Below, one piece after another: positions 9,056-12,770 of a stretch of DNA of 64,000 nucleotides. Position numbers and translations under genes: made by a program. Under the pieces are notes generated by a model, which was not told the origin of the DNA, made no database searches, and was given only the letters and a program-made list of their open reading frames with translations. The DNA comes from Vandammella animalimorsus. Its GTDB lineage: Bacteria; Pseudomonadota; Gammaproteobacteria; Burkholderiales; Burkholderiaceae_C. Where the stretch lies: positions 248,001-312,000 of the forward strand of contig NZ_NSJF01000004.1 of assembly GCF_002285285.1 (NCBI RefSeq), written 5' to 3'. Position 1 is the stretch's first letter; each line of letters starts with the position of its first letter.

Positions 9056-9367
9056 ATGACCGCCGCCGTTGGCCTGTTCGAGGCCAAGACCCACCTGAGC
9101 GAATACGTCGCCCGCGCCGAGCGGGGCGAGGAAGTCATCATCACCCGCCACAACAAGCCCGTGGCCAAGCTGGTGCCGCTGCACGCCCCGGCGCAGGCTG
9201 CCGCGCCCGAGGCGCCACCCTTCGTGCAGCGCACCTTCCACACCGGCGTGCCGCTGGTGGATCTGACCAAGGCCAACCAGCTCGCTGGCGAGCTGGAGGA
9301 CGAGGAGCTGATCGAAAAAATGCGCCGCATCGAGCAGGCATACCAGGAGCGCCATGCTGCTTCCTGA
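9056..9367 (+). CDS. Phd/YefM-family antitoxin
   Basis: A 103-residue antitoxin. The N-terminal Phd/YefM DNA-binding and dimerisation fold is visible: VGLFEAKTHLSEYVARAERGEEVIITRHNKPVAKLVP, ending near residue 43. The C-terminal half is acidic with DLTKANQLAGELEDEELIEKM and is the likely toxin-binding tail. CAGGAG lies 6-7 bp before the ATG. The end of the gene overlaps the toxin gene by 14 bp, the usual coupled arrangement. The protein should neutralise the PIN-domain toxin and bind the pair's own promoter. The pair sits between tRNA-Gly and alaS. Confidence 0.88.
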   Translation: MTAAVGLFEAKTHLSEYVARAERGEEVIITRHNKPVAKLVPLHAPAQAAAPEAPPFVQRTFHTGVPLVDLTKANQLAGELEDEELIEKMRRIEQAYQERHAAS

Positions 9368-9779
9368 CACCAATGTGCTGCTCAACGCCGTTCATGCCGA
9401 CAGCCCCCAGCACGCACAGGCCAAGCAGGCGCTGGAGGCCGCGATGCTGGACACGCGCGGCATGGCGCTGGCCTGGGTGGTGCTGATCGGCTTTGTGCGC
9501 CTGTCCACCAAGCGCGGCATCCTGCCTGCGCCGCTGGACGTGGCCGATGCGCTGGGCGTGGTCGATGAATGGCTGGCCCACCCGCGCACCCGCGTGCTGG
9601 AGCCTGGGCCGCTGCACGCGGGCATCTTCGGCCGCCTGCTGCTCTCGGCTGGCACGGCGGGCAACCTCACCAACGACGCCCACATCGCCGCACTGGCCAT
9701 CGAGCACCAGGCCGAGGTGCTCACTTTTGACAAGGATTTCGCCCGCTTCAGCGGGCTGCGCTATCAACTGCTTGCATGA
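9354..9779 (+). CDS. PIN-domain toxin (VapC family ribonuclease)
   Basis: A 141-residue PIN-domain endoribonuclease. Acidic metal-binding residues are in place: D5 in LLPDTNVLL, the later NDAHIAALA aspartate and the TFDKDFARF aspartates. VapC-type toxins cut structured RNAs, often initiator tRNA or rRNA; the target here cannot be predicted. The start overlaps the antitoxin by 14 bp and no separate ribosome site is needed. The stop is 57 bp before the alaS start chosen here. VapC toxins more commonly pair with VapB; pairing with a Phd/YefM-type antitoxin is a known mixed arrangement. Confidence 0.9.
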   Translation: MLLPDTNVLLNAVHADSPQHAQAKQALEAAMLDTRGMALAWVVLIGFVRLSTKRGILPAPLDVADALGVVDEWLAHPRTRVLEPGPLHAGIFGRLLLSAGTAGNLTNDAHIAALAIEHQAEVLTFDKDFARFSGLRYQLLA

Positions 9780-9836: not shown

Positions 9837-12770
9837 ATGACCACCGACAAACCCACCACCCCCACCTCCGTCGCCGAAATCCGCCAGAGCTTTCTGGACT
9901 TCTTCGCCGCCAAGGGCCACACCATCGTGCCCTCGTCCTCGCTCGTGCCTGCCAATGACCCCACGCTGATGTTCACCAACAGCGGCATGGTGCAGTTCAA
10001 GGACGTGTTCCTGGGCACTGACAAGCGCCCCTACGTGCGCGCCACCAGCGTGCAGGCCAGCCTGCGTGCCGGCGGCAAGCACAACGATCTGGAAAACGTG
10101 GGCTACACCGCGCGCCACCACACCTTTTTCGAAATGCTGGGCAACTGGAGCTTTGGCGACTATTTCAAGAAGGAATCCATCCTCTGGGGCTGGGAGCTGT
10201 TGACCAAGGTCTACGGCCTGCCGCCCGAAAAGCTGCTGGCCACTGTCTATCACGAGGACGACGAGGCCTACGACATCTGGACGCAAGTCATCGGCCTGCC
10301 GCCCGAGCGCGTGATCCGCATTGGCGACAACAAGGGCGGCAAGTACAAGAGCGACAACTTCTGGATGATGGCCGACACCGGCCCCTGCGGCCCCTGCTCG
10401 GAAATCTTTTACGACCACGGCCCGCATATCCCCGGCGGCCCCCCGGGCAGCCCCGATGAAGACGGCGACCGCTTCATCGAAATCTGGAACCACGTGTTCA
10501 TGCAGTTCGAAATGCATGAAGACGGCAGCGTGACTAAACTGCCCGCGCCCTGCGTGGATACCGGCATGGGCCTTGAGCGCCTGGCAGCCATCCTGCAAGG
10601 CGTGCACAGCAATTACGAAATCGACCTGTTTCAGGCGCTCATCCAAGCGGCCGCGCGCGAAACGGGCTGCACCGATTTGAACCATCCCTCACTCAAGGTG
10701 ATTGCTGACCACATCCGCGCCACCGCATTTTTGGTCAGCGACGGCGTGATTCCGAGCAACGAAGGCCGTGGCTACGTGCAGCGCCGCATCATCCGCCGCG
10801 CCATTCGCCACGGCTACAAGCTGGGGCAGAAAAAGCCCTTCTTCCACAAGCTGGTGCGCGATCTGGTGCAGCAAATGGGTGCGGCCTACCCGCGCCTGGC
10901 CGAGCAGGAAGCGCGCATCACCGAAGCGCTCAAGACCGAGGAAGAACGCTTCTTCGAAACGCTGGCCAATGGCATGGAAATTCTTTTGGATTGGGTCTTT
11001 GACCTGCGAAAGCTGATGCTGGATGCATGGTGCCGGGAAACTGGGAAAGATCGTAGCCTGTTATTCACAATACCATCGGAAACCACCAGACCTTTTTGGT
11101 GGGGGAAGGATTCGCTGGATAACGAAAAAATCCAACTAGTTCCTTATCTTCCTTCTAGCCATAAGGATGGCCCATCTTTGGGATGTTCAAGCGCGTTGAA
11201 AACGGTCGTTATATTGCCTGATGAGATATACAAATCGCGAGACCTCTTGGATCTTTGTAAAGCACCCGGGTGTGATGTTCATGTTCTGACAGAGTCATGG
11301 CGACAGTTGCCAGGGGAGATTGCCTTCAAACTGCACGACACCTATGGCTTCCCGCTTGACCTCACGCAAGACGTGTGCCGCGAGCTCGGCGTGACGGTGG
11401 ACGTGGCGGGCTTCGACGCCGCCATGCAGCACCAGAAAGACACGGCCCGCGCCGCCGGCAAGTTCAAGATGGACAAGCAGCTCGCCTACGACGGCGTGCC
11501 CAGCCGCTTCACCGGCTACACCAGCCTGCAAGAGCAGGCTACCGTGCTCGCCCTGTATGCCGACGGTGCGCCCGTGCAGCAACTGCAAGCCGGGCAGCAC
11601 GGTGTGGTCGTGCTCGACACCACGCCCTTCTACGCCGAAAGCGGTGGCCAGGTGGGCGATCGCGGCCAAATCACCACCGCCAGCGGCGCGGTGTTTGAGG
11701 TGCAGGACACGCAGAAAATCAAGGCCGACGTGTTCGGCCAGCACGGCGTGCTGCAAAGCGGCAGCCTCAAAGTGGGCGATGCGGTGCAGGCCGCGGTCAA
11801 TGCCGAGCTGCGCGCCGCCACCACGCGCAACCACAGCGTGACGCACCTGATGCACAAGGCCTTGCGCGAAACCCTGGGCGAGCACGTGCAGCAAAAAGGC
11901 TCGCTGGTCGATGAGGACAAGACCCGCTTCGACTTCGTGCAAAACGCCCCCGTCACGCAAGAGCAATTGCACCGCATCGAGCAATTGGTCAACGCCGAAA
12001 TCGTGCAGGACGCGCCCACCGTCATCCGCGAAATGGGCATCGAGGACGCCAAAGCCAGCGGCGCCATGATGCTGTTTGGCGAGAAATACGGCGACGTGGT
12101 GCGCGTGGTGGACATTGGCGAGAGCCGCGAACTCTGCGGCGGCACGCACGTGCAGCGTGCCGGGGAAATCGGCCTGTTCAAGCTCGTCATGGAAGGCGGC
12201 GTGGCCGCTGGCGTGCGCCGCGTGGAGGCCATCACCGGCGCCAAGGCCCTGGCCTATGTGCAGCAGCTCGAAAGCACCGTGGCCCAGGCCGCGCGCACCC
12301 TCAAGGCCCCCGTGCATGAGCTGCAAGCCAAGCTGGAGCAGCAGCTCGAGCATGCCAAGGCGCTGGAAAAGGAAATCGCCGCCCTCAAGGGCAAGCTCGC
12401 CTCATCCCAAGGCGACGAGCTGGCCGCCCAGGCCATCGACGTGGGCGGCCTGAAAGTGCTGGCCGCCCAGCTCGACGGCGCCGATGCCAAGACCCTGCGC
12501 GACACGCTGGACAAGCTCAAGGACAAACTCAAGAGCGCCGCCATCGTGCTCGCCGCGGTGGATGGCGACAAGGTGCAACTGGCCGCAGGCGTCACCAAAG
12601 ACGCCGTGGGCCAGCTCAAGGCCGGCGAGCTGGTCAACTTCGTCGCCCAACAAGTGGGCGGCAAAGGCGGCGGCAAGCCCGACATGGCCATGGCCGGCGG
12701 CACCGACGCCGCCGCCCTGCCCGCCGCGCTACACAGCGTGCAGGGCTGGGTGGCGGAGAAGCTGGCCTGA
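9837..12770 (+). CDS. alaS: Alanyl-tRNA synthetase with an extra internal block of about 107 residues
   Basis: Charges tRNA-Ala and edits mischarged serine and glycine. The catalytic core begins at the N-terminus ([54 protein letters not shown]). The editing site residues are H666 and H670 (NHSVTHLMH) and C767 and H771 (CGGTH). The C-Ala domain ends with [16 protein letters not shown]. The protein is 977 residues, where about 875 is usual. In E. coli the editing residues are H564, H568, C666 and H670, so everything after the insertion is displaced by about 101. The excess lies at residues 384-490, between ANGMEIL and [15 protein letters not shown] (separate entry). The ATG at 9837 gives the standard N-terminus; an open 17-codon upstream extension is rejected. 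No frameshift or stop, so the gene appears functional. Confidence 0.97.
10983..11306 (+). other. Low-GC in-frame insertion within alaS
   Basis: About 324 bp replacing what is normally an 8-10-residue loop in the helical tRNA-recognition part of alanyl-tRNA synthetase. By hand count 10981-11306 is about 47% G+C (152 of 326), against roughly two-thirds in flanking alaS. Codon use changes sharply (TTT, ATA, AAA, TTA, CTA appear) and returns to normal at the LPGE motif. The encoded block (residues 384-490) has four cysteines and several tryptophans ([53 protein letters not shown]) and matches no family I recognise. The frame stays open throughout. It lacks intein end motifs and intron-like features. 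Function unknown. Confidence 0.85.

Follow-up and report, generated by a model that had tools for sequence, protein, structure and literature searches.

Aminoacyl-tRNA synthetases are usually seen as housekeeping enzymes, universal and slow to change, and serve as phylogenetic markers, and their inserted or appended domains are stable within a lineage. In type I restriction systems, the target-recognition domains of HsdS recombine between conserved flanks. In-frame insertions in proteins include repeat peptides such as the Rickettsia palindromic elements, and the minimal mobile elements of Neisseria, as reportedly described by Snyder et al. in 2007, are gene cassettes located between two genes. 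Snyder et al. 2007 is among the references of PMC3388099 and PMC2911385, and a passage of the former describes DNA uptake sequences (DUS) as closely associated with minimal mobile elements and integration as occurring by homologous recombination. Among the synthetases, an 'insertion domain' is treated for GlyRS in PMC12208437, and a naturally occurring mini-AlaRS, which has lost the editing and C-Ala domains, is presented in PMC10036535; the alanyl-tRNA synthetase (AlaRS) described here is likewise a natural architectural variant, but has gained an apparently exchangeable insert.

The window, that is the whole stretch of 64,000 nucleotides of Vandammella animalimorsus DNA analysed here, contains alaS in positions 9837 to 12770 of the forward strand. 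Our main reading, to which we assign a probability of about 0.6, is that the AlaRS linker running from the ANGMEIL helix to the loop that reads G3-U70 is a slot for exchangeable accessory domains. The slot resembles the minimal mobile elements of Neisseria in having varied cassettes at one site, conserved flanks and different contents in related species. Those elements are whole genes between genes, whereas the alaS cassette is located inside one essential coding sequence whose frame and enzyme function it must leave intact; the window insert has the cassette and the flanks of a minimal mobile element and is not a whole gene. An extra domain in the synthetase core is also a feature of the known inserted and appended synthetase domains, but these are stable in a lineage, while the insert in the alaS slot differs between sister species and matches no recognised family. 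The swapping of a variable domain between conserved flanks is shared with HsdS, which is a non-essential defence protein, whereas the carrier of the slot is an essential synthetase. Rickettsia palindromic elements, too, are inserted in frame in proteins; unlike these, the window insert is not repeat-like and has no second copy in the genome in a protein-level search.

The alaS product is 977 residues long, numbered from the ATG at 9837, and at E ≤ 1e-50 the genome gave no other match to AlaRS. The catalytic, editing and DHHA1 domains are all present (Pfam tRNA-synt_2c, 4e-206; tRNA_SAD; DHHA1), and what we take to be the editing-site residues, His666 and His670 (11832..11846) and Cys767 and His771 (12135..12149, both on the forward strand), were computed to lie exactly where the first-pass annotation had placed them. 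The 107-residue in-frame insert described in that annotation is borne out as well. The extra residues (384-490) follow ANGMEIL and precede the next conserved motif, and the low-GC in-frame block stands as described, except that it starts at 10986, three bases further in than the 10983 originally given, and extends to 11306 on the forward strand. Between the same motifs, the plain linker is 10 residues long in all 30 plain loci of the family that were read (L028-L057). The G+C content, taken in 150-base windows, drops across the insert to 0.45-0.48 from about 0.57-0.67. The earlier statement that the insert frame contains no stop and would rarely stay open by chance is also confirmed: the probability of 107 stop-free codons in one frame at the composition of the insert is 0.0024, and the alaS frame is the only one of the six that is open. 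In the 64-kb window, low-GC patches (<0.50 in 150 bp) well inside ORFs of at least 200 aa were limited to the insert and one at 60.1 kb, and the latter adjoins other AT-rich stretches.

Aligned to the E. coli AlaRS 3hxu, the slot is located between chain positions 378 and 387, approximately 10 residues ahead of a D-T-Y-G peptide. The corresponding window peptide, HDTYG (residues 500-504; 11334..11348, forward strand), is the counterpart of the AlaRS peptide contacting G3-U70. A passage of PMC6451123 reports this contact for the equivalent peptide of A. fulgidus AlaRS, and states that Tyr is always found at this position of the peptide in bacterial AlaRS. We noticed that the window peptide starts with a His, and that KLHD is likewise present in the 30 loci of the family (L028-L057) whose plain linkers were read. 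A pattern search of the window genome found at least two tRNA-Ala genes, GGC and TGC, and G3 faces T70 in both, so that the usual identity element is kept; the suggestion of an altered tRNA recognition is given no support by these two genes.

Genomes and alaS loci of the survey are designated by G and L numbers, respectively, G000 being the window genome. Within the genus, eight of ten genomes were matched, the other two being 77-80% complete. Rather than all close relatives sharing one block of normal base composition, five congeners have the plain linker and two, G086 and G204, carry inserts different from that of the window. These two are its closest relatives, with AlaRS sequences 95-97% identical outside the slot. 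The residues between the same motifs number 134 in G086, 77 in G204 and 109 in the window, the G+C content of the inserts is 0.41 in G086 and 0.39 in G204, and no pairwise relation among the three inserts was detected by BLASTP. More than 200 bp out, the identity of the alaS flanks was 93.7% for window/G086, 94.4% for window/G204 and 95.9% for G086/G204, and within 60 bp of the slot (10926..11366 of the window, forward strand) it was 87.5%, 85.0% and 84.2%, respectively. Random placements matched the observed differences in 1038, 258 and 0 of 20000 cases, in the same order; the dip near the slot is clear for G086/G204, moderate for window/G204 and marginal for window/G086. The proposal of a recently acquired in-frame segment which the enzyme tolerates is supported by the differing slots of the sister species and by the short diverged tracts in their flanks, which are marginal for one window pair. 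A link between the insert and a toxin-antitoxin pair was also considered. A Phd/YefM antitoxin gene (9056-9367) and a PIN-domain gene (9354-9779), both identified by Pfam, are located directly upstream of the window alaS and their ORFs are also present in G086; G204 has an insert and no Phd/PIN pair upstream of alaS.

The source of the insert had been called unrecognised, and this description held in searches of families, structures, phages, plasmids and genomes, in which the insert appeared as an orphan sequence. The best Pfam matches (E = 0.011, below the cut-off) were two models of the RA domain, a ubiquitin-like domain, over residues 73-107 of the insert query. No convincing match was obtained in NCBIfam, in PHROGs (best 0.18), among PDB sequences (best 1.6), in plasmids and phages by tblastn, or in genome_contigs and viral_contigs with six 8-residue patterns, and the insert matched no other insert of the survey. 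In 200 family genomes, two 33-residue matches were found besides the insert itself, in G121 (E = 0.005) and G144 (E = 0.009). Both were judged to be chance, the one in G121 lying inside a 336-aa ORF that by eye is exonuclease-like. A protein search of its own genome returned the insert and one chance match of 29 residues containing a stop (E = 0.96). The window insert gave no splicing-domain match of the kind expected for an intein in Pfam or NCBIfam, and the PADLOC models of known defence proteins matched none of nine inserts at E ≤ 1, a set that does not include G640 or the g184 inserts described below.

Searches with the remaining inserts were similar in outcome. For the G086 insert no convincing match was obtained in 199 other family genomes, viral_contigs or Pfam, nor in PDB, where the best was at 0.69, or in plasmids, where there was a single match at E = 6. 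The G204 insert had none in Pfam, NCBIfam, viral_contigs or plasmids (4 matches, E = 5-7). The other inserts gave sub-threshold matches only, with the lowest E values at 0.0036 (G524, WH_GDS1) and 0.018 (G640, NF047937). None of the inserts matched a nuclease, transposase or intein family in the Pfam and NCBIfam results. Among the matches listed in a search of open-access papers, outside which subscription papers fall, none dealt with such AlaRS inserts by its title or the start of its abstract.

The occurrence of inserts in the family was surveyed with an insert-free AlaRS segment as the query, which matched 287 of 299 genomes, 16 of them in two pieces; G212 was dropped from these 16 (contig break). 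At least 23 extra residues are present at the slot in 15 of the 287 matching genomes. Nine, the window included (G000, G086, G204, G042, G095, G185, G211, G219 and G272), have low-GC, domain-like inserts that exceed the plain linker by 65-126 residues, four (G005, G083, G218 and G257) have repeat-like inserts, presumably palindromic-repeat peptides, and the remaining two inserts are short. The repeat-like slot peptides at L062, L065, L069 and L070 are of the PHPNPLPxGEG and PVRPEPVEG types. In the order, 392 of 399 genomes were matched, and in 21 of them, among which are G000 and G042, the match fell into two pieces. Three of the other 19 were dropped, G649 for a run of N, G402 because two contigs were involved and G314 because of contig ends; the remaining 16 have an insert, which in eight is roughly 85 residues long or longer and in the other eight roughly 22-30. 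Short inserts are undercounted in both surveys, since few of the single-piece matches were read and the unmatched genomes (12 of 299 in the family and 7 of 399 in the order) were left uninspected. The presence of repeat-like and short inserts shows that the slot accepts non-domain sequence. Outside the 16, the match in G017 (L058, L085) was split near query residue 65, as if approximately 38 residues were inserted elsewhere in AlaRS. In G272 (L071), the G+C content is also low (about 0.47-0.63) over some 90 codons preceding the insert, as would be seen if more of alaS had been imported along with it.

One insert type is common to G211 and G640, which belong to different families (45% identity; phmmer 2.8e-29), and the same sequences were also found in a Sulfurimicrobium MAG and in the bin of an uncultured bacterium. 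The G204 and G095 inserts are weakly related (1.2e-5), with a contribution from the ends touching the conserved flank. In 249 relatives of G211, the A4 profile found the alaS of G211 and 13 other rows that were weak (E = 6e-4 to 0.09), two of which were inspected. A beta-beta-alpha-beta-alpha-beta order was read by eye in the inserts of G086, G211, G219, G272 and perhaps the window. Pairwise hhalign, which gave at most 3% except for G211/G640 (99.5) and N633/N611 (91), failed to confirm this order, and a single insert superfamily is therefore not claimed. The predicted structure of the G211-type insert had a mean pLDDT of 46.7, with ten-residue blocks of up to 79, and its best Foldseek match in PDB was at E = 0.019, with none at ≤ 0.001; the pLDDT of the predicted window segment (42) is too low to interpret.

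A second genus, g184, which we take to be Neisseria, was matched in 45 of 46 genomes and displayed an insert in 17 species and the plain linker in 28. Thirteen of the 17 inserts are of a single type, here termed type a. The L146 insert (genome G611) is partly related to type a (profile E = 3.6e-6; hhalign 91%), and those of L145, L147 and L153 had no type-a profile match at E ≤ 0.01. The L153 insert (G712) is 159 aa long and contains a glycine-rich hydrophobic stretch whose maximal 19-aa hydropathy (1.63) is the highest of 31 segments compared, as if a membrane-active segment were held inside AlaRS; its match to DUF3482 is weak (E = 0.079, below the cut-off). On the alaS-flank tree of the 45 species at least 12 changes between insert and plain linker are required, a count that is uncertain because 19 of the 42 inner branches have support <80. 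The mean of shuffled states was 13.9, and the insert state is without detectable phylogenetic signal, since 182 of 1000 shuffles reach 12 changes or fewer. Closely related species differ: L146 and L153 have an insert and L149 and L157-L159 have none, with end branches of about 0.01.

Sister pairs in g184 were chosen by hand, 11 with at least one insert and four plain-plain pairs as controls. In all 11 insert-bearing pairs the identity drops to 57-83% on at least one side of the slot, within 30-180 bp of it, and further out these pairs are mostly 90-100% identical, the exception being L135/L161, which is diverged throughout. One of the four controls (L149/L157) dips too, and past insert losses could account for this. 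Short low-identity tracts by the slot are the pattern that homologous recombination leaves. L140 pairs with L143 by insert (99), but its flank places it with L137 (96). Across the type-a pairs, the identities of insert and flank are correlated (Spearman 0.41, p = 2e-4, 78 pairs), and part of the history is therefore vertical.

An alternative to a domain slot is a loop that tolerates almost any in-frame DNA, to which recombination adds, and from which it removes, functionless pieces. The repeat-like peptides (G005, G083, G218, G257) and short inserts sharing the slot agree with such neutrality, as does a window insert without convincing relatives. We nevertheless consider it unlikely, for substitution rates indicate that selection maintains the amino-acid sequence of one insert type, type a. 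Among type-a pairs, four distant ones were compared, in which dN was 0.35-0.47 and dS 1.5-2.4, and the resulting dN/dS of 0.15-0.27 is a rough figure because dS is near saturation; in a close pair dN was 0.01 and dS 0.11. In the distant pairs the left flank has a dN of 0.04-0.07, far lower than the insert. In 12 of the 13 type-a sequences, 28 of 108 columns are invariant; the type-a profile, A5, comprises 12 of the 13. The G211/G640 type (dS saturated) holds its 45% identity across two families, and in 10 of 10 inserts tested the alaS frame is the only open one. This evidence of selection concerns type a, with dS near saturation, and for the window insert no homologue was found. A slot about 10 residues ahead of the G3-U70-contacting peptide would be well placed for a regulatory or tRNA/tmRNA-binding domain with a tuning effect on aminoacylation. 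We regard such a housekeeping role as improbable, given that G3-U70 is retained in the two tRNA-Ala genes found, that close g184 relatives are without any insert, and that a core function would hardly be expected of a slot filled by unrelated sequences.

The low G+C and scattered occurrence of the inserts would also fit a self-moving in-frame element (an intein, a homing element or a palindromic element of the Rickettsia type), and a selfish element had been among the first suggestions. As an explanation this is highly improbable: nuclease, transposase and intein families are absent from the Pfam and NCBIfam results, the matches of the A5 profile, present in 18 of 83 family genomes, are in all 18 cases at the alaS slot, and the flank tracts indicate homologous recombination. 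The G+C step alone might have pointed to an assembly error or chimaera, a concern raised at the outset, but the chance of this is negligible with other in-frame inserts held at the same place in two sister genomes.

With the exchangeable slot as the preferred reading, homologous recombination within the conserved flanks would carry cassettes from one alaS allele to another, the longer inserts would fold into surface domains of the tRNA-recognition part, and alanine charging would be left intact. Exchange is well supported in g184 and less so for the window. As for function, a weak guess is that inserts are kept and replaced through host-parasite conflict, in which they would protect AlaRS against a factor of a phage or competitor at this surface, or sense it; we rate this clearly below even odds. 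Conflict fits better than a core function because unrelated inserts occupy one surface point, gain and loss take place between close species, and there is selection within a type. The wider proposal, in which a hypervariable, recombination-spread AlaRS slot of the Burkholderiales engages an essential synthetase in conflict with phages or competitors as a fast-changing immune or escape surface, with uptake signals inside the cassettes in a genus that bears DUS, is put forward tentatively and is itself doubtful. One AlaRS site changes content between sister species, and at least one insert type appears to be under selection. If the segments act in conflict, AlaRS would be a so far overlooked target of phages or rival bacteria, or a sensor of them; should the segments be neutral, the slot would be a natural insertion-tolerant site by the G3-U70 reader and a clean system for cassette exchange in an essential gene.

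In g184, the exchange of cassettes would probably take place by natural transformation. The 10-mer GCCGTCTGAA, presumably the Neisseria DNA uptake sequence, is present in 192 copies in 171 kb from the 45 g184 loci, as against 0 in 250 kb from 65 control loci, and with this richness in uptake sequences g184 is probably Neisseria. By analogy, uptake-driven exchange may also occur in the window's genus. Counts of uptake sequences within the g184 alaS genes take in three variants. Plain slots contain uptake sequences too, 6 over 1530 bp, and the density outside alaS is 2.4-2.6 per kb. In the inserts the density is 2.60 per kb (15 in 5769 bp), copies in related inserts not being independent, compared to 0.68 per kb (30 in 44067 bp) in the rest of the same insert-bearing genes, and at least one uptake sequence is present in 9 of the 17 inserts.
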